This document shows positions 11,994 through 34,857 of a stretch of DNA of 37,998 nt, piece by piece. Both the position numbers and the translations under genes were made by a program. Source of the DNA: Sandarakinorhabdus oryzae. Its GTDB lineage: Bacteria > Pseudomonadota > Alphaproteobacteria > Sphingomonadales > Sphingomonadaceae. The stretch is taken from positions 1 through 37,998 of the forward strand of contig NZ_WNJP01000009.1 of the NCBI RefSeq assembly GCF_009733735.1, written 5' to 3'. The notes below the pieces were generated by a model. The model saw only the letters and a list, made by a program, of their open reading frames with translations. It searched no databases and had not been told where the DNA came from. Position 1 is the stretch's first letter. Every line of letters begins with the position of its first letter.

Positions 11994-12000
11994 GGTGGCG

Positions 12001-13248: not shown

Positions 13249-13325
13249 CGGGGAGTGGCGCAGTCTGGTAGCGCATCTGCTTTGGGAGCAGAGGGCCGCA
13301 GGTTCGAATCCTGTCTCCCCGACCA
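13249..13325 (+). tRNA. tRNA-Pro (anticodon TGG)
   Basis: A 77-base cloverleaf. The acceptor arm CGGGGAG pairs with CTCCCCG, the anticodon stem TCTGC/GCAGA encloses the loop TTTGGGA (anticodon TGG), the T-arm is GCAGG-TTCGAAT-CCTGT, the discriminator is A and CCA is encoded. Its 3' end is the insertion site of the island that follows, and the gene is kept intact by the left copy of the att repeat. Confidence 0.97.
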
Positions 13326-13326
13326 T
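13308..13326 (+). repeat. attL core (tRNA-Pro 3' end)
   Basis: ATCCTGTCTCCCCGACCAT, the T-arm 3' strand and acceptor end of the tRNA plus one base. It is identical to 34762-34780 at the other end of the island; 18 of its 19 bases recur at 34823-34840. Confidence 0.9.
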
Positions 13327-14609: not shown

Positions 14610-16073
14610 TTGAGAACTGAGAATGTGTCGCCGCGTGCGTCCATGCTGATAGAAAGCATGCGTGATCTCGGTTATTCGCTAGAGACGGCCTTGGCTGATA
14701 TCATTGATAATTCCATCGCAGCCAACGCAGATTCAATCGATATATTTACCGATCCTTCGGATGAAACACCTCGTATTGCCATCGTCGACAACGGCTGCGG
14801 GATGACAGAAGCTGAACTGCTCGACGCCATGCGTGCGGGCAGCCAGAACCCTCTCTCTTCCCGAAAAGCGAATGACCTTGGAAGATTTGGCCTTGGACTC
14901 AAAACTGCTTCCTTTTCGCAGTGCCGCCGGCTGAGCGTCATCACGAGGCGGGATGACAAGATGTCCGCAGCCATCTGGGACCTTGATCACGTTGCAAAGA
15001 CTGATCGATGGGAAGTGCTGATGCCACCCGATCCGTCAGCGTTGCCGTTGGCTTCAAGGCTGATCGGAAACGGCACGATCGTGATCTGGGAGCAGATGGA
15101 CCGCCTTCACGGTGGCCTTGGAACTGGGCTGCTGGTTCGACGACTGAGCGAAGCCGCAAGCCACCTCGAGCTTGTCTTTCACCGCTTCCTGAGCGGTGAG
15201 GTTGGACAGCGGAAGGTCAGGATTTCCCTGAACAACACGCCACTCAGACCTCTGGATCCTTTCGCTTCCACACTCAAGGCGACACAGAGGCTCGAACCCG
15301 AGATTCTAGCGGTCAATGGTCATCCGGTGACAATTCAGGCGTTCACACTGCCTCATTTCAGCAAGATAGAATCCAAGGAAGAATGGGAAAGATTGGCAGG
15401 TGAAGCAGGACACCTGAGAAATCAGGGCTTCTATCTGTATCGCGAACGGCGCCTGATCATCTGGGGGACCTGGTTCGGCCTTGCTCGTCACCGTCCACTG
15501 ACCAATCTGTCGCGCGTTAGGATCGATATGCCAAAGGAGCTCGATCCCGAATGGAAGATCGACGTCAAGAAGGCATCTGCGCAGCCGCCTGCCATACTGC
15601 GCGAACGGTTACGGCAACTGGTTGAGAAGATCGGGGCCAGCTCGAAGCGAGTCTATACACACAAGGGCAAGAAACTGAATATCGATGGCCGACTTGATGT
15701 CTGGAGCCGTGTTCAGGACAAAGGCGAAATAAAGTATCATTTCAACAAGGAACATCCGTCCTTCCAATCCTTGGTAGACGGTTTGCCCGATGCCCAGAGG
15801 TCGCGCTTGATTGCGCTCGTGGAGCTGATGGAATCCATGCTTCCGTTCGACTCCATATTTGCTGACAGAGGGGGTGACCCCAAGGCAATTGTCACGAACG
15901 GTGTCGCAGATGAAAGCTTGGCCCTACTTGCCCGCGATACGTATCTGCAACTCAACGGTGCCAGCGACAGGTCGGCCAAGATCCTCGACATGATGGCGAT
16001 GTGTGAACCGTTTTCGCTTCGGTGGCAGGACACCTTGAGCATGCTCAAGACAGCATTTTCGTGGGAGTCGTGA
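14610..16073 (+). CDS. MutL/MORC-like GHKL ATPase of a defence operon
   Basis: A 487-residue ATPase of the GHKL (gyrase, Hsp90, histidine kinase, MutL) superfamily. Visible motifs: N-box ALADIIDNSIAANA (residues 28-40), G1 IVDNGCGM (58-65) and G2 LGRFGLGLKTAS (90-101). The N-box position that is the catalytic Glu in MutL reads as Asp30 here. Prokaryotic relatives of MORC/MutL in restriction-like operons with Z1 proteins were described by Iyer, Abhiman and Aravind. They are thought to clamp or remodel DNA. The start is a TTG at 14610 preceded by a strong GAGGGGGG; no ATG fits as well. First gene of the module; the next gene follows within six bases. Confidence 0.88.
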   Translation: MRTENVSPRASMLIESMRDLGYSLETALADIIDNSIAANADSIDIFTDPSDETPRIAIVDNGCGMTEAELLDAMRAGSQNPLSSRKANDLGRFGLGLKTASFSQCRRLSVITRRDDKMSAAIWDLDHVAKTDRWEVLMPPDPSALPLASRLIGNGTIVIWEQMDRLHGGLGTGLLVRRLSEAASHLELVFHRFLSGEVGQRKVRISLNNTPLRPLDPFASTLKATQRLEPEILAVNGHPVTIQAFTLPHFSKIESKEEWERLAGEAGHLRNQGFYLYRERRLIIWGTWFGLARHRPLTNLSRVRIDMPKELDPEWKIDVKKASAQPPAILRERLRQLVEKIGASSKRVYTHKGKKLNIDGRLDVWSRVQDKGEIKYHFNKEHPSFQSLVDGLPDAQRSRLIALVELMESMLPFDSIFADRGGDPKAIVTNGVADESLALLARDTYLQLNGASDRSAKILDMMAMCEPFSLRWQDTLSMLKTAFSWES

Positions 16074-16078
16074 CGGCG

Positions 16079-18814: not shown

Positions 18815-19817
18815 CGATCCTTGGAGCAGCATAGCCAAGCCATCGGAAGCTGCCGCTGTTTCCGGCAGGCGCGTTTCGCCAGACAACAGATGGGATTTTT
18901 TCTGGGCAAAGGACTCTCGGGGAAAGTGCCTTCTTGTCCTCCAACATCATGCCTCCTCGAGCTCCTTCGAGAAATTGCCGAAACCCAAGGGGCTAACTGT
19001 CGAGATCGTTGACGCCGTAGAGGGGCGAAAAACCCTCATGCTGAGGCTGCTTGATACGCAGCAGCGCGATATCTTCCTCAAACTCTCGGAGGACATAATT
19101 CTTGCGGCCGAAGGTGCCGAGACTGAAGCTGAAGCCGTCGCTGTCGCGTTGGCACGGACATGGCGCTGGCATCATCTGCTCAAGGGTGGCGCAGGCGGGA
19201 AGCTGGGCGAGGAAGAGCAGAAAGGGCTGATCGGCGAGCTACTGGTGCTCAAGCGCTATCTGCTGCCGATCTTCAACCCAATCACAGCGGTGTCAGCCTG
19301 GCTCGGACCGATTGGATCGCCCAAGGACTTCGAGATCGGACGGGTTGCGATCGAAGCAAAAGCTAGGCGCGGAACAGCTACGCCATTCGTCAAGATTTCC
19401 TCGGAACATCAGCTCGACGAAGTGGGCTGCGACGTCCTCTTTCTCCATGTGGTCGAGCTGGACAGATTGCCGGTTGAGGCGGATCCAGATCTGGCGCTGA
19501 GTCTGACGAGCCTTGCGGACCAAATTCGAGTTTCGCTTCAGGCTGCGGATCAGACGGCCGTTGAGGCATTTGAGGCATGTCTGATTTCAGCCGGAGTGAG
19601 ACCGGAAGACGATTATTCTGATGATCTCTGGATCGAGGGTCGTTCGCGTGTCTTCGAGGTAAAGGATGGGTTCCCCAGGGTTACTGCGCAGTCTGCGGGA
19701 GCAGGTGTGAGGGGGGTGCAATACTCCATCGACCTCGCCGCTTGCGAACCCTTTGCGGTGCTTTCAACGACAATTTCCGAACAACTGGGGAAACTGACCA
19801 ATGTCGCAGACCATTGA
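18807..19817 (+). CDS. PD-(D/E)XK nuclease-like protein (DUF4420 type)
   Basis: A 336-residue protein of the PD-(D/E)XK motif family found beside Z1 proteins. The likely nuclease core comprises the Glu in QKGLIGELLVLKRYL, the Asp in GSPKDFEIG and the ExK in VAIEAKAR. This predicts a metal-dependent DNA cleaving subunit, probably the effector of the module. ATG 18807 has GGAGGAG a few bases upstream and overlaps the Z1 stop by eight bases. A longer frame from 18774 lacks a ribosome site. The 3' end overlaps the AIPR gene by 17 bases. Confidence 0.85.
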   Translation: MTDDPWSSIAKPSEAAAVSGRRVSPDNRWDFFWAKDSRGKCLLVLQHHASSSSFEKLPKPKGLTVEIVDAVEGRKTLMLRLLDTQQRDIFLKLSEDIILAAEGAETEAEAVAVALARTWRWHHLLKGGAGGKLGEEEQKGLIGELLVLKRYLLPIFNPITAVSAWLGPIGSPKDFEIGRVAIEAKARRGTATPFVKISSEHQLDEVGCDVLFLHVVELDRLPVEADPDLALSLTSLADQIRVSLQAADQTAVEAFEACLISAGVRPEDDYSDDLWIEGRSRVFEVKDGFPRVTAQSAGAGVRGVQYSIDLAACEPFAVLSTTISEQLGKLTNVADH

Positions 19818-21852
19818 GGAGTTCCAGCGCGAACTGGCGAGAGATGTCGTTCTGACGGCGGATGCGACCGGCGATTTCAAGGAAGAGGCGTTCTTCGAGA
19901 TCGTGGCATCGCATCTTGTCGATGCTGGCGAACTGGAAACGCACGAGCGCACACATTTTGCCGATCGCGGGCTTCGGATTGATGGCCATGGAGGACATCC
20001 ACGTGATGCAGATGGCATTCTATCCCTTATTGTTCAGGACTTCAGCCAATCAGATGCGATGGAGACGCTGACGAACACGGACATGCAGGCGGTGTTCAAC
20101 CGTGCGACACAGTTCATGAAAAAGGCGCGGGACCCGTCCTTTCGCAGGGACTTCGAAGAGAGCTCACCTGCATTCGAAGCGGCGCTGCACATAGACGGAT
20201 GCTGGGCTCAAGCGCGCCGAGTGAAGCTGATCCTGCTGACCAACAAGGTTCTCAGCACGCGCGTAGATGGCCGTGAGTCTGCCGAAATCGATGGCAAGGA
20301 GGTCGTTTACAGTGTCTGGGATCTGGGGCGGCTGTTTCGATATATCTCGTCCGGGCGGGAACGCGAGGAGATGGAGCTCGATCTTGTGGCCGATTATGGC
20401 GGGGCTATCCCGGCGCTTCCCGCTCATCTGAAAACCGGCGACTACCAAGCCTTCCTTGCGGTCGTTCCGGGCGCCCAGGTCGCGCTCATCTACGACAGGT
20501 GGGGCTCCCGCCTCCTCGAACAGAATGTTCGCAGCTTCCTCCAGCTCAAAGGGGGCGTCAACAAGGGGATGGCAAAGACCATCATCGAAACTCCCGAAAT
20601 GTTCTTTGCATACAACAACGGGATCACAGCCACGGCAGAAGCGGTGGAACTCGACGGCGACGGTAGTGCTATCTGCAAGATAAGAAATCTGCAGATCGTC
20701 AACGGCGGTCAGACCACTGCATCGCTGCATCTTCAGAGGACAAGAGGGACTGACCTGTCAAAGGTATTCGTTCAGATGAAGCTGTCTATCGTCCAACCGG
20801 AGTTCGTTGAAGAGATTGTTCCGAAGATATCTGAGTATGCGAATACACAGAACAAAGTGAATGCAGCAGATTTCTTTGCAAATCATCCTTTCCATATCGA
20901 GCTTCAAAAATCATCTCGACAGGTTCTTGCACCAGCTAAAAAAGGAACTTTTGTTGAGACTCGTTGGTTCTATGAGCGCTCTCGTGGGCAATTTGTGAGC
21001 GAAAGGTCGCGGATATCTGGATCTGCATTGAAGAAATTTGATGCAGATTTTCCTTCTGCGCAGTTGATCACGAAAACGGATCTGGCAAAGGCTCTGAACT
21101 TGTGGCCTGGCTTTGTTGGCATTGCACCCGAGTCCGTTTCGAGAGGCGCTCAGAAAACCTTCTCTGATTTTGCGAAAGCCGTCAGTGGATCTTGGACAGA
21201 AAAGAGACGTGATGAAATAAATGATGCATATTTTAAGGAATGCGTATCGAAAATTATAATTTATAAAGAATCAATATCGATCTTCAATAAAAAATATCCG
21301 GGAGCCGGCTACCCTGCGCAGACCGTCGCATATGCTATTGCAAAGCTTGCTTCGGATTTGGACGAGCGAGGCGAATGTTTGTCATTTATGAACGTATGGC
21401 TTGCGCAGAGTCTTACTCCGGGCGTGCGTCGCGCTTTGGAAATCTCAATGGAAGCTGTCAGAGACGTCCTTACAAACCCTCCGATTGCAGGTCAGAACAT
21501 CTCGGAATGGGCAAAGGTTCAACTTTGTTGGATGCGCGTGAAAGCGCTGCGCGTGGACTGGCCCAGCGAGCTGGAGGACGATCTGCTATCCACAGCGCTC
21601 GCGCGTCAGGGAAAGAAGGAAGCCAAGAAGGACAAGCAGGAGGACTCAGGCATCGCCGCTCAAGCTGCCGTCTTGCAGGCGGGCAGCCACCATTGGGAGA
21701 AGCTGCTGGATTTTGCGAAATCGAAGAAGCTACTTTCGCCGAACGAGCGGCAGATACTCGCGTTGGCGGCGCGACCTGGGGCGCTGCCCAACGACAAGCA
21801 GTGTCTGGTGTTGATGAGGATCGAGCGCACTCTCAAGGATGCCGCAATCTGA
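19801..21852 (+). CDS. AIPR family protein (abortive infection phage resistance)
   Basis: The 683-residue product matches the AIPR family: NNGITATAEAVELDGDG, IRNLQIVNGGQTTASLH and a conserved KISEYANTQNKVNAADFFAN stretch. Members occur in phage-resistance operons with Z1 and PD-(D/E)XK proteins; their biochemical role is not settled, although a nuclease-like core has been suggested. It starts at ATG 19801 inside the previous gene, a sign of coupling. The stretch from about 20820 to 21330 is much richer in A and T than either side, hinting that the gene is a mosaic. The C-terminal part is Lys-rich (KKEAKKDKQ). Confidence 0.87.
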   Translation: MSQTIEEFQRELARDVVLTADATGDFKEEAFFEIVASHLVDAGELETHERTHFADRGLRIDGHGGHPRDADGILSLIVQDFSQSDAMETLTNTDMQAVFNRATQFMKKARDPSFRRDFEESSPAFEAALHIDGCWAQARRVKLILLTNKVLSTRVDGRESAEIDGKEVVYSVWDLGRLFRYISSGREREEMELDLVADYGGAIPALPAHLKTGDYQAFLAVVPGAQVALIYDRWGSRLLEQNVRSFLQLKGGVNKGMAKTIIETPEMFFAYNNGITATAEAVELDGDGSAICKIRNLQIVNGGQTTASLHLQRTRGTDLSKVFVQMKLSIVQPEFVEEIVPKISEYANTQNKVNAADFFANHPFHIELQKSSRQVLAPAKKGTFVETRWFYERSRGQFVSERSRISGSALKKFDADFPSAQLITKTDLAKALNLWPGFVGIAPESVSRGAQKTFSDFAKAVSGSWTEKRRDEINDAYFKECVSKIIIYKESISIFNKKYPGAGYPAQTVAYAIAKLASDLDERGECLSFMNVWLAQSLTPGVRRALEISMEAVRDVLTNPPIAGQNISEWAKVQLCWMRVKALRVDWPSELEDDLLSTALARQGKKEAKKDKQEDSGIAAQAAVLQAGSHHWEKLLDFAKSKKLLSPNERQILALAARPGALPNDKQCLVLMRIERTLKDAAI

Positions 21853-22421: not shown

Positions 22422-23975
22422 GTGAACACGGGTGGTGAGCTCTTGAAGACCTACAAGGTTGTCGACCTATTTGCCGGACCGGGAGGGTTGGCGGAAGGGC
22501 TGGCCTCTGTCCGCCGTAACGGGCAGGCCATGTTCGACGTTCGCCTCTCTGTTGAAAAGGATCCTGCCGCCTTTTCAACCCTGCGCCTGCGAAGCTTCTA
22601 CCGTCAGTTCGGCGGTGCGGCTCCAGTAGCCTATTATGAGCATCTCGGCGGGGCTCTATCACGCGACGACCTAGTAAGGCGATATCCAGACCAGTGGGCC
22701 AATGCTTGCCGGGAGACACTCCAGCTGGAAATGGGTTCAGAGGGCGCCGATGAGATTCTGGACCCCATCCTGGCCGGCATCATGGCCGAAGATAGCCGAG
22801 ATATCATCCTTGTTGGCGGGCCGCCGTGCCAAGCGTATTCCCTTGTGGGTAGAGCCAGGAACCGTGGCACTGTGGGCTACGTCGCCCGGGACGATGGCAG
22901 GCATTTCCTTTATCGTGAGTATGTCCGGATACTGAAACTGCTTCAGCCTGTCGCGTTCGTGATGGAGAACGTGAAAGGCATCATGTCTGCAAAGGTCGAT
23001 AGCGAAAGCATCATCGAGATGGTCCTGAGTGACCTCACGACGGTCAATGGACCTGACAGCTACCGCATCGTGCCATTCTCATATGACCACGAGACGGCTG
23101 TCACGACAAATCTGCTGAAAGCCGAACAACTCGGAGTTCCGCAAAGACGACACAGGGTCATACTCGTCGGGGTCAGAGCCGAACTCGTGGACAGTGGTGC
23201 CATCGCTTCAGCTTTCCAGCTGAGTGGCTTCACATCGAAGTCGACGGTTCGTGACGTTCTTGGTGGAATGGAACCTGTTCGCAGCAGCTTGAGCCAATCA
23301 CCCGACAACAATGTTGCATGGCGTGCAGCTGTCCTCGAGGCGATGAGATCGGCAGCCCAGGCTGCCCTACAGGAAGAAGACGAAAGACAGGACTTGGTAG
23401 CCCAGCGCTTGGCTGAACACATCCTTTCAGTGCTCGCTGGTGCCGCTCCTGCCTCCACGTCATCAGTCACCCCGGCGCCAATCCTGAACAACCGCCTTGC
23501 AGACTGGATCATCGACCCCAAGGTCGACCGGCTCCCGAACCATCATGCTCGAGGGCACATGCAGTCAGACCTGGCTCGCTATGCCTATGCTGCGACATTT
23601 GCCGAAGTGCATGGCTATTCACCAAAGTCAGGCGAATTTCCGGATCAGCTGGCTCCTGCTCATGAAAGCTGGAAGAGTGGGAAATTTGCCGATCGGTTCC
23701 GAGTGCAGTCATGGGACCAGCCGTCGACAACAATCACCAGTCATATCAGCAAGGATGGGCACTATTTCATCCATCCTGATCCTGTTCAGTGCCGCTCGTT
23801 GACCGTCAGAGAAGCTGCCCGACTTCAAACCTTTCCGGACAATTACCTATTTTGTGGTAATCGCACACAGCAATTTGTTCAGGTAGGCAATGCCGTTCCG
23901 CCGTTGCTAGCGAAGCATATTGGCGAAATGCTCTATGAGCTTCTGGATCAGACGGGCGAGCGCTCTTCAGCTTGA
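22422..23975 (+). CDS. DNA (cytosine-5) methyltransferase
   Basis: A 517-residue C5 methyltransferase with motifs in standard order: I VVDLFAGPGGLAEG, IV GGPPCQAYS with catalytic Cys136, VI FVMENVKGIM, VIII LGVPQRRHRVILVG, a long target-recognition region, and X VGNAVPPLLAKHIGEML. It probably protects host DNA from the module's nuclease. The target sequence cannot be read from the protein. GTG 22422 is the longest start, but TTG 22443, preceded by GGTGAG, would begin just before motif I and may be the true one. The last nine bases overlap the convergent small gene at 23967. Confidence 0.95.
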   Translation: MNTGGELLKTYKVVDLFAGPGGLAEGLASVRRNGQAMFDVRLSVEKDPAAFSTLRLRSFYRQFGGAAPVAYYEHLGGALSRDDLVRRYPDQWANACRETLQLEMGSEGADEILDPILAGIMAEDSRDIILVGGPPCQAYSLVGRARNRGTVGYVARDDGRHFLYREYVRILKLLQPVAFVMENVKGIMSAKVDSESIIEMVLSDLTTVNGPDSYRIVPFSYDHETAVTTNLLKAEQLGVPQRRHRVILVGVRAELVDSGAIASAFQLSGFTSKSTVRDVLGGMEPVRSSLSQSPDNNVAWRAAVLEAMRSAAQAALQEEDERQDLVAQRLAEHILSVLAGAAPASTSSVTPAPILNNRLADWIIDPKVDRLPNHHARGHMQSDLARYAYAATFAEVHGYSPKSGEFPDQLAPAHESWKSGKFADRFRVQSWDQPSTTITSHISKDGHYFIHPDPVQCRSLTVREAARLQTFPDNYLFCGNRTQQFVQVGNAVPPLLAKHIGEMLYELLDQTGERSSA

Positions 23976-24389: not shown

Positions 24390-24950
24390 TCACTCACGAT
24401 TTCGAGCTGGAACTGACAGGTGACGATACACACTCGCCCGACCGATGCCGAGTGTCCTCGCAATCCTTGCAGGACCGTCGCCGGCGGCTCTCATGGCACG
24501 AATCTTGTCAACATCGATTGAAACAGGACGCCCCTTATAAACCCCGGCTGCCTTAGCCTTATCGATCCCATCGCGCTGGCGCTCACGTCGGAGATCCGTT
24601 TCAAACTCGGCAAAGCTCGCCAAGATGTTGAGCAGGAGCTTTCCATCGGGCCGGGTTGTGTCGATGCCACCCTGCTGAAGACAGCGGAAGGTGACGCCTT
24701 TTGATGCGAGGCCGGCAACGATCTGTTTCAGATCAAGCATCGACCTTGCCAGTCGATCCAGGCGGGTAACGATAAGGGTGTCGCCTTCGCGGGCGAACTC
24801 CAAAGCTTGCTCCAATGCTGCGCGTCCATCGGTTGTGGTGCCGCTGCGCTTTTCGGCGAACACCTTCTCACACCCGGCTGCGGTGAGCGCCTCTAGCTGC
24901 AGGTCGAGTGATTGTGAGATCGAGCTTACTCGAGCATAACCGATTAGCAT
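24390..24950 (-). CDS. Serine recombinase (Tn3-type resolvase/invertase)
   Basis: A 186-residue resolvase. The N-terminal catalytic domain has GYARVSSISQSLDLQ with nucleophile Ser9, and the conserved DTLIVTRLDRLARSM. The E-helix region LNILASFAEFETDLRRER is followed by GRPVSID and a C-terminal helix-turn-helix (GPARIARTLGIGRASVYRHL). It recombines paired sites by double-strand cuts through a phosphoserine bond. No transposase accompanies it, so it may be a transposon remnant, a dimer resolver for the island, or an inverting enzyme. An inverted repeat 47 bases upstream (24997-25011) may be part of its site. The ribosome site is weak. Confidence 0.93.
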   Translation of the reverse strand: MLIGYARVSSISQSLDLQLEALTAAGCEKVFAEKRSGTTTDGRAALEQALEFAREGDTLIVTRLDRLARSMLDLKQIVAGLASKGVTFRCLQQGGIDTTRPDGKLLLNILASFAEFETDLRRERQRDGIDKAKAAGVYKGRPVSIDVDKIRAMRAAGDGPARIARTLGIGRASVYRHLSVPARNRE

Positions 24951-25942: not shown

Positions 25943-28900
25943 TTGGTGACAGAAGCGCGCCAGTTTCGGGCTATCGTCGTTGGAATCGAAACCTATGATG
26001 ACAAGCAGGTTTGGAAGACACTAACCGGTGTTGGCCAAACGGCTGCCCGTGTTGCACGCGCCCTTAATGCAGAGCCGCTGGCCTTGCCCAACGGCGGCCT
26101 CAAGGATGAAGCCCCCCGCGCGCTGAAAGACGCCATCAAGGCAATCCCTGATCGTGCGACGGTCTTCTTGCATTGGATCGGACATGGCGTTTCAGCTGGT
26201 GATCAGCATTACCTTGTCTGCCGAGATTCCCCCGAGCCAAGCGCCCTCGATAGCTATGAAGCGATTCCTTCCGGGGAATTAGGGCGCATCCTTGCGGCGT
26301 CTAAAGCCGAACGCGTGGTGGTGGTGCTTGACACCTGCTTTTCTGGCGACGGTGCAGGCAATCTTGCACAGCGTTATCGTGACAGCTTGGCACTTGAACT
26401 GGATAGGGAAGGTTGGGAACGCGTTGCTTGTGTGATTGCGGCGTCCCACCCGCTCGACAAGGCCGTTGCCGGCCGGTTCTCAATTGCTCTTGCAGAGGCG
26501 CTCGAAGATCCGAGCCTGCACCTCAAATGGACCCGTGCCGAGCAGTATATTGATCCCGAGCGGCTCGCGATCGCTGTTCGTGACATGCTGGGCGAGGCGA
26601 ACAAGGCGGTGCACCCGCGCTTTTCCAAGGAAGGCTTCGGTCAGGACATCATCCCCAACCCGCGCTACCAGCCGGAGGAGGGTAACACCGACCTCGAGAC
26701 CCGCCGCCGGCTGGAAGGCGTGTTTGGTGAGGCAGCGCACTTCAATCTGTCGGCACGCGGTATCGAGACTGGCGAGGCGGGCTATTTCTTCACGGGGCGG
26801 CGGCAAAGCCAGCAAGCGATTGTCGATTGGCTTGGCGGCAGCGGAGGCAACCTGCTGGTGGTCACAGGTCCGCCGGGGGTGGGAAAATCGGCGCTCATAG
26901 GCCGAATGGTCACGTTGTCTGTGCCCGAAGTGCGGACCGAAATCGCAGCTGCCGGCGGCTTGCATACCGATGATCTGCTTCCACCCGACAATTCAGTGCA
27001 TGTCGCCATCCACGCCAAAGGCAAGAGCGTGTTCGACGTGGCAACAGCGCTGGGCCGCGCCGCAGGTCTTGAGCGCCCCGTCGTCGACCAGCCGGGTATC
27101 GTCGAAGCGCTAGCAGCGCTTGCGGAGAACGGTAAGCAGCGCACCATCGTGATTGATGCGCTTGATGAGGCAGCCCAAGGCCAGGCGGAGCGCATCGCCA
27201 ACGAGATCATCCGCCCAGTGATCGCGATGCCGCACATGCGCATGCTGGTCGGCTCCCGCCGCAGCCTTGATGGTCAGTTCATTCCCGATGGCGAGGAGCG
27301 GCACGAGCGACTATTGAAGTCCTTTGGTTTGAGCGCAAACATCCTCGATCTGGCAGATGAGCCGGAAGCCCGAGCCGATATCGCCGAGTTCACCAGCAAG
27401 CGGCTGCACAGCGCGGAATCTCGCGGTGGGGATGATTGGATCGAACAGGCCGCAACCCGCGTGGCAGACGCATCAAATGGCAGCTTCCTTTATGCTCGGC
27501 TCGCAGCGCGCAGCCTTGAAGCATTCCCCGATGCTGTGCTCGAACAACTTCCGGCCGATGCCGCAGAAGCGTTCGTGCTGGATATCGCCAGCCGTTTCAG
27601 CGATGATGTTGCTCGCGTGTCCGACCTGTTGCGCTCGCTGGCCTTCGGGCTCGGTCTTGGACTGTCCCGCTCGGTCTGGGCGCCCATCGCCACTGCGCTT
27701 GCCGCGTCGCCCCATACCTATACCGACGACGATGTGGTCTGGATACTGCGCAACGCCGGGTCTTATATCATTGAGACGACAGTCCAGACCGGCGGTATCG
27801 GTCAGGCCGTATATCGACTGATTCATCAAGCGATTGCCGATCACCTGCAAAAAGCCTGCCCAACCAGTAGTCCGAATGCGCTGATCATGCGTGCGCTTAT
27901 GCATGGGTTAGAAGGTGAATCCTGGCTCGCGGCCGATGCTTATATCGCGCGTCATCTTGCCGAACATGCCGCGCAGGCGAATCATGAGCCCAGTGAGGAT
28001 GTGTGCTTCGATCGGCTATTCGATCATCCGGGTCTTCTTGCCATTGCCGTGCCAGACAATTTTCTCCGCCTGCTCGGCTACGCCGAAGGGGCAAGGGCGC
28101 GTGCAGTGCGTGATATCTACCGATTGGCTGGCGCTGAATTGCGTGTGGCCGAAGCGGTGGAGCGGTGGGCGTTGCTGCATCGGACGGCGATGTTCCAGCG
28201 GTCCGACCTAACTCAATGGCTGACGCCACCTGGGTCATCGCCCTGGCAGAGCGCTTGGGCACAGACCGCGCCTGCTATTCCCCATTTGGTAGTTGGGCGG
28301 CACAAGGCAAAGGTAAGGTCGGTTGCGCTTGGTGCGTTTGATGGCCGGGCGGTGATCGTCTCTGGTGGCGAAGATCAGACCGTCCGCCTGTGGGATGCTG
28401 CCAACGGGTCGCCGTTCGGCGTGCCGCTCATAGGCCATGAGAATGTAGTCACTTCGGTTGCGTTGGGGGAGATTAGCGGCCGAACTATCATCGCCTCGGG
28501 TAGCAGGGACCAGACCGTCCGGCTGTGGGATGCAGCCAGTGGGACGCCGTTCGGGGCGCCGCTGACGGGCCATGCAGATTCGGTCACTTCAGTCGCGCTG
28601 GGGGTGGTCAATCGCCGGATAGTGATCGTCTCGGGTAGCAGGGACCAGACTGTGCGGCTTTGGGATGCGATCAGAGGGCAACCGCTCAGTGCACCGCTCG
28701 CGGGCCATAGGTCTTGGGTCACCTCGGTTGCGCTAGGGGTGGTCAACGGCCGGATGGTAGTCGTTTCGGGAGGCAGGGACCTGACCGTTCGACTTTGGGA
28801 TGCCGAAAGAGGGCAGCCGCTCGGCTACCCGCTTACGGGCCATGGGTCTTGGGTCACCTCCGTTGCGCTTGGTGAGGTTGATGGCCGGGCGGTGATCGTC

Positions 28901-30145
28901 TCTGGTGGCGAAGATCAGACCGTCCGCCTGTGGGATGCTGCCAGCGGTTCGCCGCTCGGCGTGCCGCTTAGGGCGCATGCAGGTTCGGTAAGTTCGGTTG
29001 GGATTGGGGTGGTCGATGGCCGGGCGGTGATCGTCTCAGGTAGCAGGGACCAGACTGTGCAGCTTTGGGATGCATCCAGTGGAGCATCGCTCGGGGGACC
29101 CTTCTCAGGCCACGAGTCTTGGGTCACTTCGGTGGCGTTGGGGGTGGTCGACGGCCGGACAGTGATCATCTCCGCTGGAGATGACAAGACGGTGCGGTTG
29201 TGGGATGCCGCTAGTCGCCCGCCACGCAGCGCGCCGCTCACAGGCCATGAATTTTGGGTCGGTTCAGCTGCGTCAGGTGTGGTCGATGGGCGGACTGTGA
29301 TTGTTTCAGGTGGCGGAGACCAGACCGTTCGGTTGTGGGACGCGGCCAGCGGGACGCCGATCGGCACGCCGCTCGCTGGCCATCAGTATTGGGTCAGTTC
29401 GGTTGCGCTGGGAGTAGTCGACGGCCGGGCAGTAGTCGTCTCGGGTAGCTGGGACGAAACCGTGCGGTTATGGGATGCGGCCAGCGGCACACCGCTCGGC
29501 GCCCCGCTTGCGGGTCATGAGAATATGGTCAGCTCAGTTGCGCTTGGAGCGATCGATGGGCGGACAGTGATCATCTCGGCTGGTGATGACCAGACCGTCC
29601 GGCTGTGGGATGCGGTAAGTGGCGCATCGCTCGGAGCACCGCTCACAGGCCATGAGAATATGGTCACCTCAGTTGCGCTGGGACTAGTCGATGGCCGGGC
29701 GGTGATCGTCTCTGGTAGCGAAGATCAGACCTTGCGCCTATGGGACGCAGCCAGCGGGTTGCCGCTCGGTGCGCCACTCATAGGCCATGAGAATGTAGTC
29801 ACTTCGGTTGCGTTGGGGGAGATTAGCGGCCGAACTATCATCGCCTCGGGTAGCAGGGACCAGACCGTCCGGCTGTGGGATGCAGCCAGTGGGACGCCGT
29901 TCGGGGCGCCGCTGACGGGCCATGCAGATTCGGTCACTTCGGTTGCCCTCGGGGTGGTCGGCGGCCGGACAGTGGTAGTTTCGGGTAGCAGTGATGAAAC
30001 TATACAGGTGTGGGATGCCAGAACGGGCGAGGCCTTAATGAAATGTCCAATTGGCATGAAAATTGGTTCAGTCGTGATTTTGCCTGATAGCCATATTGTT
30101 GCTGCGACAAATCGCGGAGTGATTAGCCTTCAAGTCCGTATTTGA
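25943..30145 (+). CDS. Caspase-STAND NTPase-WD40 receptor-like protein
   Basis: A 1400-residue multidomain protein. Residues about 6-190 form a caspase (C14) domain with catalytic His81 in HWIGHG and Cys132 in LDTCFSG. A NACHT/STAND NTPase follows, with Walker A GPPGVGKS (309-316) and Walker B IVIDALDE (402-409), then a helical region with HQAIADHL near 635. From residue 786 to 1370 there are 13 WD40 repeats of exactly 45 residues, then a degenerate 14th, enough for two seven-bladed propellers. This is the layout of an NLR-like sensor: ligand binding by WD40, NTP-driven oligomerisation, protease activation, probably ending in cell death or dormancy on infection. The start is TTG 25943 or GTG 25946, both after GGGGGTGA. 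The lipase gene follows 12 bases on. Confidence 0.9.
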   Translation: MVTEARQFRAIVVGIETYDDKQVWKTLTGVGQTAARVARALNAEPLALPNGGLKDEAPRALKDAIKAIPDRATVFLHWIGHGVSAGDQHYLVCRDSPEPSALDSYEAIPSGELGRILAASKAERVVVVLDTCFSGDGAGNLAQRYRDSLALELDREGWERVACVIAASHPLDKAVAGRFSIALAEALEDPSLHLKWTRAEQYIDPERLAIAVRDMLGEANKAVHPRFSKEGFGQDIIPNPRYQPEEGNTDLETRRRLEGVFGEAAHFNLSARGIETGEAGYFFTGRRQSQQAIVDWLGGSGGNLLVVTGPPGVGKSALIGRMVTLSVPEVRTEIAAAGGLHTDDLLPPDNSVHVAIHAKGKSVFDVATALGRAAGLERPVVDQPGIVEALAALAENGKQRTIVIDALDEAAQGQAERIANEIIRPVIAMPHMRMLVGSRRSLDGQFIPDGEERHERLLKSFGLSANILDLADEPEARADIAEFTSKRLHSAESRGGDDWIEQAATRVADASNGSFLYARLAARSLEAFPDAVLEQLPADAAEAFVLDIASRFSDDVARVSDLLRSLAFGLGLGLSRSVWAPIATALAASPHTYTDDDVVWILRNAGSYIIETTVQTGGIGQAVYRLIHQAIADHLQKACPTSSPNALIMRALMHGLEGESWLAADAYIARHLAEHAAQANHEPSEDVCFDRLFDHPGLLAIAVPDNFLRLLGYAEGARARAVRDIYRLAGAELRVAEAVERWALLHRTAMFQRSDLTQWLTPPGSSPWQSAWAQTAPAIPHLVVGRHKAKVRSVALGAFDGRAVIVSGGEDQTVRLWDAANGSPFGVPLIGHENVVTSVALGEISGRTIIASGSRDQTVRLWDAASGTPFGAPLTGHADSVTSVALGVVNRRIVIVSGSRDQTVRLWDAIRGQPLSAPLAGHRSWVTSVALGVVNGRMVVVSGGRDLTVRLWDAERGQPLGYPLTGHGSWVTSVALGEVDGRAVIVSGGEDQTVRLWDAASGSPLGVPLRAHAGSVSSVGIGVVDGRAVIVSGSRDQTVQLWDASSGASLGGPFSGHESWVTSVALGVVDGRTVIISAGDDKTVRLWDAASRPPRSAPLTGHEFWVGSAASGVVDGRTVIVSGGGDQTVRLWDAASGTPIGTPLAGHQYWVSSVALGVVDGRAVVVSGSWDETVRLWDAASGTPLGAPLAGHENMVSSVALGAIDGRTVIISAGDDQTVRLWDAVSGASLGAPLTGHENMVTSVALGLVDGRAVIVSGSEDQTLRLWDAASGLPLGAPLIGHENVVTSVALGEISGRTIIASGSRDQTVRLWDAASGTPFGAPLTGHADSVTSVALGVVGGRTVVVSGSSDETIQVWDARTGEALMKCPIGMKIGSVVILPDSHIVAATNRGVISLQVRI
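28427..28590 (+). repeat. 164-bp perfect direct repeat, copy 1
   Basis: Identical base for base to 29777-29940, ten WD40 periods (1350 bases) downstream. Other unit pairs, such as 1 and 5, also share long identical tracts. Confidence 0.95.
29777..29940 (+). repeat. 164-bp perfect direct repeat, copy 2
   Basis: The second copy of the tract at 28427-28590. Identity at synonymous sites shows recent copying by unequal crossover or gene conversion. Confidence 0.95.
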
Positions 30146-30157
30146 ACGGAGGAGACG

Positions 30158-31561
30158 ATGCCGACCTCCATGCAAGACATGATCATCGTCATCCCGGGCA
30201 TCATGGGTTCAACGCTTGTTGACCTGGACGGCAAGGAGTTGTGGGGTGTGAAGCCGGGCACGCTTTTGACGTCCATCATTCGCCTCGGTCGCAACTTCGA
30301 CAAGCTGCGACTTCCGTCCGGCATCGGTGACGAAGCCGCTCCGGATGGCGTCAGGCCTGGCGCGCTGATCCCTATTCCCCATATTGTGGGCAAGCTGTTC
30401 GGCACAGAAGGGTATGGCCGGCTTGTCGCGTGGTTGGAGCAGCGGTTCGATGTGCGTCAGCCACAGGACGGGGTGCCGGGAAACCTGATCACCTTCCCCT
30501 ATGACTGGCGGCTTTCGAACCGGGCGAATGCCAGGCGGATCGAAACGGAGTTGGTGCCCATGCTGGAAGCTTGGCGGAAGGCCAGCGGCAATCCGGACGC
30601 CAAGTTCCGCTTCATCTGCCATTCCATGGGCGGGCTGGTGGCGCGCTGGTTCACGGAAGTGCTTGGCGGGCGGGAGTTGACCCGGCAGATCATCACCATC
30701 GGCACGCCTCACCGTGGTGCGGCTGAAGCGCTGGTGCGCCTGTCCAATGGCTTTGATCCCGGATTTGGGCCGATCAAGATCCCGTTGACTGGGATTATCC
30801 GCTCCTTGCCGTCTGCCCACCAATTGCTGCCCACATACCGATGCGTGGCAGACGACGGCGGACCAAAGCGGATCAGCGAAGTCACTATCCCGGACATCGA
30901 CACCGCCATGCTGACCGATGCGTTGGCATTTCATGCCACCATTCTCGATCATGCGAAGCAGGAGACACCAGCTGACTATCGCAAGTTCGCGCTGAAAGGG
31001 ATCGAGCAGCCAACCACTACCGGCGCGCGCTTTGTTGGCGGCAGGCTGGAGCCGATGAATCAGCTGGACGCACAAGACCGCCGAGGCGATGGCACGGTGC
31101 CGCGCATCTCTTCACATATGCCCGAATGGCAGGATGATGCCTACGCTGGCGCCTTTGGCCAGCAACATGCGACGTTGCAGAGTGACGGCAACCTTCACCG
31201 ACAGCTGTTCGCGATCCTGACCGCCCAAGAACTCGAGACCTACGGCGCAGGCGAGAACCTGTTCGGCCTGGAGCTTCCGGAGGTCGTGCAAGCCGGCCAA
31301 TCCTTGCCGGTGACGGTGACGAGCAGCACCGGAGATGGAAGCCTGCCCCTGCGCGTGCATCTTTTGGACGAGCAGGGAACCGAACTCGACAGCCAACTGC
31401 TGCGCAACCTGGGCGGTGGCCGATACCAAGCCATTTTCGAAGACATCGCGCCAGGTCAGGTATCCGTGCGCGTCGCATCCGCCACACCCACCCGGCCGCT
31501 GGACCCGGTCACCGGCCTCACCATCGTCTGGGACGCGGCGTTAGCCGAAGCAAATGGTTGA
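30158..31561 (+). CDS. LCAT/PGAP1-like alpha/beta hydrolase (predicted lipase)
   Basis: A 467-residue hydrolase related to lecithin:cholesterol acyltransferase and PGAP1. Motifs: VIPGIMGSTL at the N-terminus (oxyanion region), FPYDWRLS, the nucleophile elbow CHSMGG with Ser156, GTPHRGAAE, GDGTVPR with Asp311, and His337 or His347 as the third triad member. Residues from about 375 form a beta-rich Ig-like domain (LPVTVTSSTGDGSLPLRVHLLDEQG). There is no signal peptide, so it acts in the cytoplasm, possibly on membrane phospholipids. GGAGGA precedes ATG 30158, 12 bases after the caspase-WD40 stop, so the two genes are one operon. It may be a second effector or a target released by the caspase. 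Confidence 0.88.
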   Translation: MPTSMQDMIIVIPGIMGSTLVDLDGKELWGVKPGTLLTSIIRLGRNFDKLRLPSGIGDEAAPDGVRPGALIPIPHIVGKLFGTEGYGRLVAWLEQRFDVRQPQDGVPGNLITFPYDWRLSNRANARRIETELVPMLEAWRKASGNPDAKFRFICHSMGGLVARWFTEVLGGRELTRQIITIGTPHRGAAEALVRLSNGFDPGFGPIKIPLTGIIRSLPSAHQLLPTYRCVADDGGPKRISEVTIPDIDTAMLTDALAFHATILDHAKQETPADYRKFALKGIEQPTTTGARFVGGRLEPMNQLDAQDRRGDGTVPRISSHMPEWQDDAYAGAFGQQHATLQSDGNLHRQLFAILTAQELETYGAGENLFGLELPEVVQAGQSLPVTVTSSTGDGSLPLRVHLLDEQGTELDSQLLRNLGGGRYQAIFEDIAPGQVSVRVASATPTRPLDPVTGLTIVWDAALAEANG

Positions 31562-31652: not shown

Positions 31653-32567
31653 CTAGGTTGCCGGTGTGGGCTCCACCACAACCGCATTCGACCTCGATTC
31701 CAAATCTGTTGCCGGCAGGTCGATCACTCGCACCTGATCCAAAGCGACCAAATGCTCCTCACCGTTTTCGTGTTCGGCTAGGTAGACCGTCAGGGCGCCA
31801 AGCGGCACAGACCGCACGGCGGTGTGGAGACAGCGAGACGTCGCGCTGAACCGAATGACCCTGCTGTCGGTGAGATAGATGACGGTGTGATCCACCAAGG
31901 CGGCGATCTTCTTTCGCGTGTAGGTGGTTCCGCTCTGTCGAAGGTTGAGAACACGCATTGCCAGCGCGAACGAGGTTCCAGCTTGTGCTGCGAAGTCTTT
32001 CTGAGCCCAGGCTCTCAGCGCCCTGTAAAGCTCTGGAGTATGCCCGTCAGCATCCCATTCGGGGCTGAAGCTGGTGTCACCTGCTGCGGTGCCTGAATCG
32101 ACTAGAGACGCCCTGGTGACGCGCTGAGGTGCAAACATCACGCAGCGGTTGTTCAGCGTCAAAGCGACAACCATGGTAGCCCAGCTGGGTTGATGCAGCT
32201 GCTTGCTGATGCTCGCTGCCTGCTCGCAGGATACGGGATACCAGCGCGGTCTATCGTCAGGGGTAAGCTGCAACCTCAGATAACCCCACAGCAGATAGGG
32301 CAGGGTGCCCCAGCGTCGCCGGTGCTGAGCATTCCATTCGTAGAGGGGAGGGGAAGGCTGCATGCCGCAGGGCGCGGTCAATGACTGCGAGGGTTCCAGA
32401 AGCTCGAAGATCGACGTGTTGAAGGCAGTAGCCATGTTCTGGAGCTCAGCCTTGGTGGGAATTGCTGCGCGACGTTCCCATTCCTCGATCTGCTCTTCAG
32501 CCACGCCGGCTTGCTCAGCAAAACTACCGACAGTAAGCCCGCGACGAAACCTAAACCCTTTGAACAT
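31653..32567 (-). CDS. XRE-family helix-turn-helix protein with unknown C-terminal domain
   Basis: A 304-residue protein. The N-terminus is a Cro/C1-type helix-turn-helix (FRRGLTVGSFAEQAGVAEEQ, then IEEWERRAAIPTKAELQNMA). The remaining 230 residues are a mixed alpha/beta region I do not recognise, with a Trp-rich patch (RRRWGTLPYLLWGYLRL). ATG 32567 fits the start of the domain and has GAGAG nine bases upstream; ATG 32585 is also open. It converges on the lipase gene and lies near the integrase, so it may control excision or the defence genes. The long C-terminal part suggests ligand sensing. Confidence 0.75.
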   Translation of the reverse strand: MFKGFRFRRGLTVGSFAEQAGVAEEQIEEWERRAAIPTKAELQNMATAFNTSIFELLEPSQSLTAPCGMQPSPPLYEWNAQHRRRWGTLPYLLWGYLRLQLTPDDRPRWYPVSCEQAASISKQLHQPSWATMVVALTLNNRCVMFAPQRVTRASLVDSGTAAGDTSFSPEWDADGHTPELYRALRAWAQKDFAAQAGTSFALAMRVLNLRQSGTTYTRKKIAALVDHTVIYLTDSRVIRFSATSRCLHTAVRSVPLGALTVYLAEHENGEEHLVALDQVRVIDLPATDLESRSNAVVVEPTPAT

Positions 32568-32880
32568 CTGACCAGTCTCTCTCATTTATTGATACAGACC
32601 TCTTGTAGATCGAAACTGAATCGAAGTCGGGTGGAAACCGAATAATGTAAAATAATCGCCGAAAAATGGCGAAGTCTTAGGATTGGACAGTGTGTCGCCA
32701 TCCGGGTGGTGAATTTCTGACTGAGTTTTGACTTGGGTGCCTTCCATAGCCGAACAATTTGGACCGGCGTTGGATGTCTACTCAGACATTGTTGCCCAGA
32801 TCAGTGAGAGGGAATTTTTCAAAGCGGTAATATGTCTTTAGCGTGAGCGCCGTGTCTCGAACAGCAAACGCGCTCGCTCC
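32568..32880. other. Intergenic stretch of 313 bases
   Basis: Lies between the XRE gene start and the integrase stop. It is AT-richer than the core and must hold the XRE promoter. I see no small gene or strong hairpin in it. Confidence 0.5.
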
Positions 32881-34650
32881 TCAATGCCCAGCCCGGGGTA
32901 GGATTGTTGAGAAATCAACACCAGTAAAGGCCACGCTATCGATTATCTCGCACCGTTGCTGAAACGTGCCTTCGGCCATCTTTCCGTAGCGGGTGGTCAT
33001 CAAATCCTTAGAATGTCCGAGCACCACAGCGATTTGATCATCATAGAAGCCAGCCAACCGCAGCTGATCGGTGATCGTATGCCGGAAGCTATGGAGGCCC
33101 ATGCCGTCAGCACCATGCTTCACATCTATCCGCGTGAGATAGTCTCGCCAGGCGCGGGACGGCTTGGCGCCCAGGATGCCCTTCACCGGTTTCAGCCCAG
33201 GAAACAGGCGAAGATCTTTTGCCTCGCGCCTTTCGCTTACATATTTGAGAAATCCTGCAGCCTCCAAAGTTTTGTGCACTGGCACGACCCGCCGTGAAGC
33301 GGTGTTTTTGAGTGTTTTTGTGGTGTCTTCGTCGTCACATTCTTCCATATGGAACGCCCACCGGTCGCCATTCTGGTGGATATCGCTGACCAGCAGCTGC
33401 GCCAGCTCGGTTGCTCGAGCGCCCGTGAACATTGAGCACAAGGGAATCCAAAAGCGCCAATCGCGGATCAGCACATCGCCAGCTTGGTGAGGCTTCAATA
33501 CGCTTTCGGAGCCCTTGAACAGCGGTGACGCAAGAATGATGTTGAGCTGCTCGTCCGAAAACGGCGGTCGTTGGCCTCGTCCCTTGTCGATACGCGGAAA
33601 CAACCCAGAGGTAAGGTTGTGCTCAACATATTGTCGTTGAACTAGCCACTTGAAGAAGGAGCTGACGCCTGAAATCTCGCGATAGACGGTTTTTGGAGAC
33701 CGATTGGGAAGTTTCCGATTGATGCCAATCGCTACCGCAGCTGCAAGGGAAATGTCTTGGCAATCAGAGCGGCTACTGAACTTCACTGGAAGCTGGAGAA
33801 GAACTTCGACGAACGCAGCCATCTGCCGCTTCGTGATGCTTTCGACCAGGACATCGGGGCTACAATGCTGAACAAAGAGCCGGATAGCTTGGCTTTGCTG
33901 GTCTATCGTGTAGCCTTTCTTGAAAGCGCTCCGGCGCTCGGCTTCCTCAAATTTTTGGGCAAGCGCAGCAAGGGTGGTGTCCTCCCCTCCCATAGCTTTC
34001 GATGGCGTGACGAAGGATGCTCGGATCACTTCACTGGTCGGCGCGGGAGCGGCTTCCCCCCTTGCTGACCGCATCTCCAAGTCGGCTGCATCGCGAATGG
34101 CATCGACCATCGCACGGTAAAATGCCCAATAGCCTTCGGTGTATTGACCGTTTGCCAGCAACTTAGGGAGCGTCCAGCCTTCATCCTCGATAATGCGGTC
34201 CATCTTGTTCATGATGGGTTCCAACATAATTCCCTTGGTTGCCGCGTCCTTGAGCTTCAACGAACCATACTGAATGCTCGTGAGCTGGAGCGGAAGCGCA
34301 TCCCGATCTTCTGCTACGACCGCTTCCGTAAATTTGGCCTCGTAGGCCATCCGCCTCTCGTCAAAGAATTTCCGACATGCTCGATTGATGTCAGTCTTGG
34401 TCGGCGTTTTCCCTTGAAGTTCCTCGCGTGCGGATCGTCGGACTGCTTCCCACTGGTCATCCTGTTCTAGGTTGAGCCGGTGCATCACAAGGCGCGCCTG
34501 CTTGCGATCTGACGTGCCTGTCGATTTCCAGACCGCTTCCTTGGGCTTCTGCCCATGCGACCTAAGGATGGCGATGACGTCCGATGGCACCGTTCTACGG
34601 TAGAAGAAGTTTGGTGAGTCTTTGCGTTTGACGAGCCAAAGGTCGGTCAT
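32881..34650 (-). CDS. Tyrosine recombinase, island integrase
   Basis: A 589-residue phage-type integrase. The N-terminus has the DUF6538-like start (LVKRKDSPNFFYRRTVPSDV), then a long core-binding region and the C-terminal catalytic domain: Arg in TGARATELAQL, HSFRHT (HxxR), His in LGHSKD and the Tyr nucleophile in TTRYGK. The usual pentad is complete, so the enzyme should be active. ATG 34650 has GAGG five bases upstream; a GTG at 34671 is less likely. It reads into the island from the right end, with its start about 110 bases from the att repeat. It inserts the element at the tRNA-Pro 3' end. Confidence 0.95.
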   Translation of the reverse strand: MTDLWLVKRKDSPNFFYRRTVPSDVIAILRSHGQKPKEAVWKSTGTSDRKQARLVMHRLNLEQDDQWEAVRRSAREELQGKTPTKTDINRACRKFFDERRMAYEAKFTEAVVAEDRDALPLQLTSIQYGSLKLKDAATKGIMLEPIMNKMDRIIEDEGWTLPKLLANGQYTEGYWAFYRAMVDAIRDAADLEMRSARGEAAPAPTSEVIRASFVTPSKAMGGEDTTLAALAQKFEEAERRSAFKKGYTIDQQSQAIRLFVQHCSPDVLVESITKRQMAAFVEVLLQLPVKFSSRSDCQDISLAAAVAIGINRKLPNRSPKTVYREISGVSSFFKWLVQRQYVEHNLTSGLFPRIDKGRGQRPPFSDEQLNIILASPLFKGSESVLKPHQAGDVLIRDWRFWIPLCSMFTGARATELAQLLVSDIHQNGDRWAFHMEECDDEDTTKTLKNTASRRVVPVHKTLEAAGFLKYVSERREAKDLRLFPGLKPVKGILGAKPSRAWRDYLTRIDVKHGADGMGLHSFRHTITDQLRLAGFYDDQIAVVLGHSKDLMTTRYGKMAEGTFQQRCEIIDSVAFTGVDFSTILPRAGH

Positions 34651-34658
34651 GAGCACCT

Positions 34659-34691
34659 CGTAACGGCTCACGTAACAGCGAGCCGTAACAG
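34659..34691 (+). repeat. Right arm-type integrase sites (three CGTAAC repeats)
   Basis: CGTAACGG at 34659 and CGTAACAG at 34671 and 34684 are direct repeats at 12 and 13 base spacing, just upstream of the integrase start. They match those at 13380-13412 in sequence, orientation and spacing, and may also let the integrase control its own promoter. Confidence 0.65.
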
Positions 34692-34761
34692 GGCTCTCAT
34701 TTTATCGCATATAGTTCAATAACTTATTGGAACATAAACCTAAAAAACCCGCGTGTTTTGC

Positions 34762-34780
34762 ATCCTGTCTCCCCGACCAT
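34762..34780 (+). repeat. attR core
   Basis: A 19-base identical copy of the tRNA-Pro 3' end (13308-13326), 71 bases beyond the last arm-type repeat. It is the likely right boundary of the island. Confidence 0.88.
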
Positions 34781-34821
34781 TTTACGCCGCGGAGCGGCTC
34801 CGGTTACAGGATCAACGGAGT

Positions 34822-34840
34822 AATCCTGTCTCCCCGACCA
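34822..34840 (+). repeat. Third copy of the tRNA-Pro 3' end
   Basis: AATCCTGTCTCCCCGACCA, identical to 13307-13325, lies 60 bases beyond attR. ACAGGAT at 34806 can pair with its ATCCTGT, imitating a T-arm. It is either the original chromosomal junction, with the 34781-34821 segment left by an earlier insertion, or a second attachment site. Confidence 0.75.
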
Positions 34841-34857
34841 ATGTCTCCAAAAAACGA

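Follow-up and report, generated by a model that had tools for sequence, protein, structure and literature searches.

The DNA stretch considered here, referred to as the window, is the whole of contig NZ_WNJP01000009.1 from Sandarakinorhabdus oryzae (37,998 nucleotides), and the subject is a pair of neighbouring genes within it: a sensor gene, whose product joins a caspase-like peptidase domain, a STAND nucleoside triphosphatase (NTPase), a helical region and a WD40 array in one chain, and a gene for a lipase related to LCAT and PLA2G15. The two open reading frames (ORFs) lie exactly where an initial annotation of the sequence had placed them, and their coordinates, with those of the surrounding features, are collected in Table 1. 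The sensor ORF begins with TTG, or with GTG at the next codon. Its N-terminal domain is matched by the caspase model of PADLOC (E 6e-7) and by NCBIfam NF047832, the EACC1-associated caspase, at 60.7 bits, which is under the cut-off of 140 for that family. The caspase dyad, His81 and Cys132, is located as annotated, and both residues are kept in all 17 aligned domains (that of the window and 16 partners picked from the other 25 caspase-type loci described below). An Asp two residues ahead of Cys132 presumably fits a basic P1 residue, as in metacaspases. Regarding the NTPase, the Pfam family NPHP3_N is matched over its cut-off (30.4 against 24.8 bits), nSTAND1 and AAA_16 are matched under theirs, and Lys315, likewise at its annotated place, sits within the motif GPPGVGKS. 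The WD40 array had been described as having 14 blades; 13 canonical repeats are found by motif and 13 stretches by Pfam, and a degenerate 14th blade at residues 1360-1400 is plausible as judged by eye. The blades are 40-91% identical to each other, and the array is highly repetitive at window positions 28301-29950; blades 2-3 and 12-13 resemble copies of one two-blade unit (91% and 80% identity in amino acids, 89-90% in DNA), as though the sensor were undergoing reshuffling. The order of effector domain, STAND NTPase and C-terminal repeats is the layout of NLR-like antiviral STAND proteins.

The lipase gene follows in the same operon after a gap of 12 nucleotides. The LCAT family PF02450 is matched at 35.7 bits against a cut-off of 21, and the Ser-Asp-His triad, annotated as intact with an unnumbered His that proves to be His337, is invariant across the 26 rows of an alignment (A2) made of the window and 25 chosen relatives from genome contigs; an LCAT domain over the cut-off together with this triad places the protein with LCAT and group XV phospholipase A2. 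The A2 profile matches group XV phospholipase A2 (E 1.5e-13) and also LCAT. An AlphaFold2 model (predicted local distance difference test score, pLDDT, 89.3; predicted template modelling score 0.92) finds LCAT at ranks 1-4 in Foldseek and the propeptide form of the lipase BlEst2 at ranks 5-6. No obvious signal peptide is seen by eye, and by its sequence the lipase would be cytosolic. The Ig/filamin-like tail is indicated by a match of the A2 profile to the filamin-C Ig domain at residues 380-449 (E 5.4e-5), by strands in the predicted model and by Ig matches in Foldseek. Two stretches vary in length among the relatives, one ahead of Asp311 (residues 286-311, 25-46 residues) and one ahead of the tail (337-372, 34-64 residues), and both are lower-confidence blocks of the model.

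Table 1. Features of the gene pair and its surroundings in the 37,998-nucleotide window.
Feature	Position	Strand	Remarks
Sensor gene: caspase-like domain, STAND NTPase, helical region, WD40 array	25943-30145	+	1400 aa
Caspase-like peptidase domain	25967-26452	+	aa 9-170; NF047832 E 1.4e-16
Caspase dyad codons	26183-26185; 26336-26338	+	His81; Cys132
STAND-type P-loop NTPase core	26783-27259	+	aa 281-439; Lys315 codon 26885-26887
WD40 array	28265-30142	+	13 canonical 45-aa repeats, possible degenerate 14th
Shine-Dalgarno-like GGAGGA	30148-30153	+	between the genes, ahead of the lipase ATG
LCAT/PLA2G15-like lipase gene	30158-31561	+	467 aa
Catalytic triad codons	30623-31168	+	Ser156 30623-30625; Asp311 31088-31090; His337 31166-31168
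C-terminal Ig/filamin-like beta-sandwich	31262-31531	+	aa 369-458
tRNA-Pro(tgg), integration target	13249-13325	+	left repeat 13303-13326
MzaB-like gene	14610-16073	+	PADLOC, E 2.6e-81
MzaC-like gene	16022-18814	+	PADLOC, E 6.2e-142
MzaD-like gene	18774-19817	+	PADLOC, E 5e-18
MzaE-like gene	19801-21852	+	PADLOC, E 7.3e-82
C5 cytosine DNA methyltransferase gene	22422-23975	+	
Serine resolvase gene	24390-24950	-	Pfam
HTH_3-domain protein gene	31653-32585	-	convergent to the lipase gene
Tyrosine integrase gene	32881-34671	-	DUF6538 and Phage_integrase
Right copy of tRNA-Pro 3' end	34757-34780	+	92% of 24 nt
Further partial copy of tRNA-Pro 3' end	34818-34841		79%

Relatives of the lipase were collected from plasmids and from genomes. 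A tblastn search of 72,556 plasmid records found 37, of which 13 were taken with their neighbours, and genome contigs scanned with a first lipase alignment (A1) yielded at least 269; the 80 best of these were retained. Adding the window, the copy of its own locus (L001) and three matches from its order (L002-L004) gave 98 stretches, which were scored with profile hidden Markov models (HMMs); the lipase-family cut was set at 200 bits after a gap in the scores (201, 184, 147) had been seen, and 46 loci, L001 excluded, lie above it. A gene with a cysteine-peptidase domain adjoins the lipase in 44 of the 46 (26 caspase, 7 CHAT, 11 transglutaminase-like), so that the pair is found well beyond this strain, a point on which the initial annotation had made its interpretation depend; related pairs occur in several phyla of bacteria. 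As the homologous ORFs are long and 44 family loci are paired, the pairing is not a matter of chance. Among the CHAT calls, that of L012 comes from Pfam (E 8.7e-11) and that of L028 from Pfam (E 2.1e-37) with a weak HMM match; L038 and L042 scored alike. Among the 51 loci below the cut, one has an adjacent peptidase-domain gene (L092), three have a CHAT gene one gene away (L050, L056, L063), and in 42 none is detected. The other five (L075, L083, L087, L090, L095) carry hydrolase and CHAT in one chain; Pfam, applied to four of them, places LCAT over the threshold in three (L083, L090, L095) and under it in L075, the call in L087 comes from the purpose-built HMM only, and the L083 fusion also has PLD-like domains.

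More independent support is given by the Pfam matches and by 21 further loci. These were drawn from 119 genomes of the order to which the Streptomyces genome of L024 belongs, 17 of which hold the lipase at E <= 1e-60, in 23 places; the known L018 and L024 and two places identical to L035 and L042 in the last 200 residues were removed, and two additional lipase copies were taken from the genome of L052. An adjacent peptidase gene is present in 20 of the 21 new places (15 caspase, 3 transglutaminase-like and 2 CHAT, the last confirmed by Pfam), and the exception (L171, 2391-7700) is one long ORF that joins a STAND NTPase to the lipase, with no recognised peptidase. In the phylum of the window, two of 398 genomes match at E <= 1e-40, the window's own included; the other (L176) scores 155 bits, with no peptidase neighbour found. 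In the phylum of L026, the only match among 194 genomes at E <= 1e-60 is that of L026 itself. By these genome counts, the lipase family is rare beyond the order of L024. Scans of genome and viral contigs with the single lipase protein, whose patterns were too specific, gave no confirmed relatives; viral contigs scanned with A2 gave eight weak partial relatives, and phage records searched for the lipase gave none.

The lipase clade and the peptidase type are co-inherited while the sensor parts change. In a lipase tree of 45 rows, from which L042 was omitted, all 25 caspase-paired rows stand on one side of a branch with support 100/100, and L010 and L022, two loci in which no peptidase neighbour was found, fall among them. 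Peptidase type changes three times on this tree (the minimum being two), against a mean of 16.1 when types are shuffled (0 of 200 shuffles as low), and phylum changes eight times, with phyla assigned by hand for the window and for the loci on plasmids. For 25 loci, lipase distances correlate with caspase distances (r 0.80, 0 of 2000 permutations as high) and with those of the 330 residues after the caspase (r 0.76, 0 of 2000 permutations), and the caspase correlates more highly with that following segment (r 0.94), the two being parts of one chain; kinship contributes to such clustering, and the placement of the long-branched L013 is unsure. Ten partner ends were scanned in a survey of the sensor ends. 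WD40 repeats are found in the window, L037 and L051, and weakly in L013; TPR in L018, L023, L026, L034 (weak) and L044; and HEAT in L008, while none is recognised in L020. The partner of L030 contains VMAP-C and that of L036 VMAP-M2, and CHAT is the sole Pfam match in the partners of L005, L007 and L009.

Regarding the third peptidase type, a Cys and a His are invariant in all nine aligned rows, and the peptidase of L030 shows a weak Pfam transglutaminase-like match below the cut-off (E 0.0068). A predicted model (pLDDT 78.7) gave no match at E <= 0.001 in a fold search (best 0.034), and its top rows include menin, PNGase and a putative cysteine protease, which we take to be transglutaminase-like. 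We infer that this type is transglutaminase-like; rare peptidases of that kind on VMAPs are mentioned in the passages seen of Kaur et al. 2020 (PMC7159879).

The relationship was also examined from the side of the sensor. The first 770 residues of the sensor matched 39 plasmid records, and by coordinates the best place adjoins this lipase in 18 of them. From the other 21 records 17 were taken (H50, H53, H68 and H73 were left out): one (L111) also has an LCAT-type lipase, and in 13 a shorter, different alpha/beta-hydrolase adjoins the sensor (L098-L104, L107-L110, L112 and L113; for example L104, 4946-5815), mostly of about 290 residues with a GHSLGSV motif. This short hydrolase fills the lipase slot in 13 of 13 taken caspase-type STAND sensors that lack an LCAT-type lipase. 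The caspase HMM matches 12 of these sensors, L098 is matched only by the CHAT HMM and weakly (E 1e-4), and the genes of L113 are split into several ORFs. An HMM of the short hydrolase, built from 6 of those 13, finds nothing at E 1e-5 in L001-L097 or in the window. Two trypsin-type sensors, identified by Pfam in L105 and by record annotation in L106, adjoin Trypco1 (PF19493, E 8.5e-21 and 4.2e-19), and in L114 neither peptidase nor hydrolase was detected. In this sample of STAND sensors, caspase pairs with alpha/beta-hydrolase and trypsin with Trypco, the same rule that the accessible part of Kaur et al. 2020 (PMC7159879) gives for VMAP systems.

We interpret the gene pair as an immune module of NLR-like (STAND) type whose output comprises two enzymes, a peptidase and the membrane-attacking lipase that it licenses; on balance, this interpretation appears narrowly probable. 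As the NLR-like layout suggests, the WD40 array would sense a phage or mobile-element cue, upon which the STAND NTPase would oligomerise and thereby cluster and activate the N-terminal caspase-like peptidase. The peptidase would then license the neighbouring cytosolic lipase, most likely by cutting a pro-lipase that may be gated by its Ig-like tail or by a loop close to the active site, and the lipase would hydrolyse membrane phospholipid and stop or kill the infected cell. Licensing is favoured because it is the simplest reason for one lipase family to be tied to three cysteine-peptidase types, because hydrolase-CHAT fusions (L075, L083, L090, L095) and the STAND-lipase fusion of L171 exist, and because protease-activated pro-nucleases, as described in the portions consulted of Tuck et al. 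2025 (PMC12799240), provide a precedent. More broadly, and as a tentative proposal, the loci may represent a widespread class of protease-licensed phospholipase modules that the searched papers do not describe in these terms, in which one LCAT/PLA2G15-like family of pro-lipases, with clades locked to caspase, CHAT or transglutaminase-like peptidases, is shared among STAND-WD40, STAND-TPR, STAND-HEAT, VMAP and CHAT sensors. The interpretation in the initial annotation is partly supported: the coupling of sensor, caspase and lipase fits.

Several points weigh against peptidase licensing, and they concern both the counts and the mechanism. No peptidase neighbour was found in L010 and L022 (2 of 46), nor in L047 (184 bits, near a contig end), with which the count becomes 44 of 47. 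Partners from this very set served to build the three peptidase HMMs, which makes the count of 44 in 46 partly circular; many of the low-scoring control loci are short, and one of them (L016) has an annotated serine protease as neighbour, a type outside the coverage of the three HMMs. From the 21 new places exact duplicates alone were removed, so that kin of the training loci stay, and two of them, both transglutaminase-like, score 198 (L172) and 187 bits (L173), which gives 18 of 19 at a cut of 200. In the window's own order, 4 of 346 genomes match: the window's and three others, which score 123-124 bits. Regarding cleavage, no conserved basic residue or cut site is present in the variable stretches or the linker across the aligned lipases. 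Gating insertions and cut sites have been demonstrated for nuclease-protease pairs according to the available text of Tuck et al. 2025 (PMC12799240); in the window lipase the two variable-length stretches may be candidates for such an insertion. In L013 the caspase dyad is intact although its lipase has lost Ser and His, and in the esterase EstA3 removal of the C-terminal beta-sandwich abolished activity on C12-16 substrates, as stated in the excerpt consulted. The suggestion of the initial annotation that the lipase is cleaved in its Ig-like tail finds no conserved basic candidate site in the linker, and this tail is rejected as a certain cut site, given also that the comparable tail of EstA3 aids activity; BlEst2, by contrast, is inhibited by its own C-terminal domains, judging from the title of the cited work. 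The L013 lipase itself (6995-8374, Streptomyces clavuligerus), whose losses were read from alignment A1, forms a long branch in the tree.

The absence of a conserved cut site would also be expected if the lipase were left uncut and switched on by binding or recruitment to the assembled sensor, through allostery or proximity, with the caspase acting on itself or on other proteins. We consider this unlikely but worth serious attention; L171, in which a STAND NTPase is fused to the lipase with no recognised peptidase, agrees with it, and the single-chain hydrolase-CHAT fusions fit proximity as well as cleavage. The near-obligate pairing with a cysteine peptidase argues in the other direction, as does the fact that lipase clades track the type of peptidase across varying sensor repeats. 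The same co-variation bears on the view that caspase and lipase are parallel toxic effectors of one sensor, neither acting on the other: both enzymes keep their catalytic residues in nearly all aligned rows, as this view would have it, but separate loss or swapping would be expected, and peptidase type and lipase clade move together instead, which makes it improbable.

Whether the pair is immune at all may be questioned, given that the portions seen of Kaur et al. 2020 (PMC7159879) emphasise multicellular prokaryotes and that 34 of the 45 lipase-tree rows are Actinomycetota, as would suit a developmental or stress-related cell-death or signalling device. The window genome is that of a sphingomonad, the pair shares an integrated island with Mza genes, and other pairs are on plasmids; we regard a non-immune role as quite improbable. 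Least of all would we expect the lipase to hold the sensor in check as its immunity, repair or antitoxin partner. The catalytically dead lipase beside an intact caspase in L013 could be read in this way, and yet the triad is kept in the 26 rows of A2 and the fusions to CHAT and to STAND place the lipase as an output domain, so that a restraining role is very unlikely. Peptidase licensing of the lipase thus remains the interpretation that we prefer.

Known systems resemble this module in several respects. For VMAP (vWA-MoxR) ternary systems, which belong to the NTP-dependent conflict systems of bacteria, the passages seen of Kaur et al. 2020 (PMC7159879) report that a caspase is paired with an alpha/beta-hydrolase, and for GAP1-N1 systems they report a related hydrolase; they do not distinguish which hydrolase, LCAT-like, short or both, was meant. 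VMAP ternary systems likewise carry a caspase on the core protein and an alpha/beta-hydrolase gene next door, whereas the core in the window is a single STAND-WD40 protein and the hydrolase is LCAT/PLA2G15-like with an Ig-like tail. No VMAP domain was found by Pfam in sensor residues 1-770, nor, for the whole protein, among the 25 listed of 39 families, and Pfam on the main ORFs from 10.4 to 37.7 kb found no MoxR or vWA genes; as mentioned above, some members of the lipase family do adjoin VMAP partners (L030, L036). The EACC1 two-gene system, a caspase with variable C-terminal domains that include STAND in the part seen of the same paper, shares caspase and STAND with the window sensor, but the latter stays below the NF047832 cut-off; no EACC1-like 5' gene was recognised in the Pfam scan, in which no EACC1 model was searched by name. 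Avs and bacterial NACHT STAND proteins have the same layout of N-terminal effector, STAND NTPase and C-terminal repeat sensor; no PADLOC Avs model matched the window, and its output appears to pass to a lipase encoded by a gene of its own. LCAT and group XV phospholipase A2 (PDB 5txf, 4x90) share the alpha/beta-hydrolase core and triad and are the best profile and fold matches, whereas the window lipase is cytosolic as judged by eye, bears the extra Ig-like tail and is paired with a peptidase.

The closest parallel in mechanism is offered by Hachiman, AVAST and canu, in which a pro-nuclease is activated through proteolysis by its trypsin or caspase partner. To detect such pairs, the consulted sections of Tuck et al. 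2025 (PMC12799240) give two hallmarks, co-evolution with the protease and insertions that block the active site, and they foresee other proteolytically activated enzyme classes; a c-Jun peptide was substituted there for HamA so as to force clustering. Nuclease-protease pairs and canu likewise encode the effector in a gene of its own, next to a protease that is fused to a variable sensor, a caspase version exists (canu), and effector-protease co-evolution is common to both, here in the tree and distance tests; their effector is an MBL-fold nuclease, and that of the window an LCAT-like lipase. This kind of system is already known: Kaur et al. 2020 predicted it, and Tuck et al. 2025 described the mechanism for effectors of a different class. 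The statement that exactly this pair is unprecedented is rejected owing to the former paper (PMC7159879), and of the novelty seen by the initial annotation the STAND-WD40 core and the LCAT identity stand. The present analysis contributes the assignment of the hydrolase to LCAT/PLA2G15, the recognition of an Ig-like tail on it and of a core composed of STAND and WD40, the correspondence of lipase clades to three types of peptidase, and a second, short hydrolase that occupies the lipase slot. A literature search, weak in that it covered mostly open papers, found no test of an LCAT-type lipase with a bacterial caspase in titles or beginnings of abstracts.

If the proposed licensing is correct, the module would be for lipases what the nuclease-protease pairs are for nucleases, and in it a bacterial caspase would act on a phospholipase to bring about cell death, a parallel to the membrane-breaking death of animal cells. 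Gasdermins are effectors switched on by bacterial immune proteases, and the lipase would join them. Such activation has been shown for nucleases in the sections consulted of Tuck et al. 2025 (PMC12799240), and a general prediction of the passages seen of Kaur et al. and Tuck et al. takes concrete form in two genes whose catalytic residues can be named. The natural swaps of peptidases and sensors around one lipase family make cleavage and recruitment directly testable against each other.

Regarding the surroundings, the gene pair is located on a 21.5-kb island integrated at tRNA-Pro, and the defence setting claimed in the initial annotation is borne out by the Mza-like genes and the methyltransferase on the same island. 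Three copies of the tRNA 3' end (100%, 92% and 79%) within window positions 13249-34841 hint at repeated integration. In 2-kb steps, the G+C content is 0.53-0.63 at 14-34 kb, 0.67-0.69 at 2-12 kb and 0.59 at 34-36 kb. In the 8 listed of 1037 matching records, Novosphingobium and Sphingobium megaplasmids align with 91-95% of the left flank (9096-13230) at 72-76% identity. Directly upstream of the sensor lies an ORF of 89 residues with no Pfam match, with the resolvase on the opposite strand.

Further genes accompany related loci. In the rhizobial CHAT-lipase loci L005 (10304-12157), L007 (10285-12792) and L009 (10235-12742), a convergent gene follows directly after the CHAT gene; it is annotated as an S8 peptidase in L005 and L007, is of similar size in the unannotated L009, and is possibly a third component. 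XRE and/or RES-domain genes occur near the Streptomyces caspase-lipase loci L011, L014, L015 and L111, and a toxin-antitoxin pair may travel with them. In L109 and L110, on Streptomyces plasmids, a caspase-STAND sensor with the short hydrolase stands near type I-E CRISPR genes.

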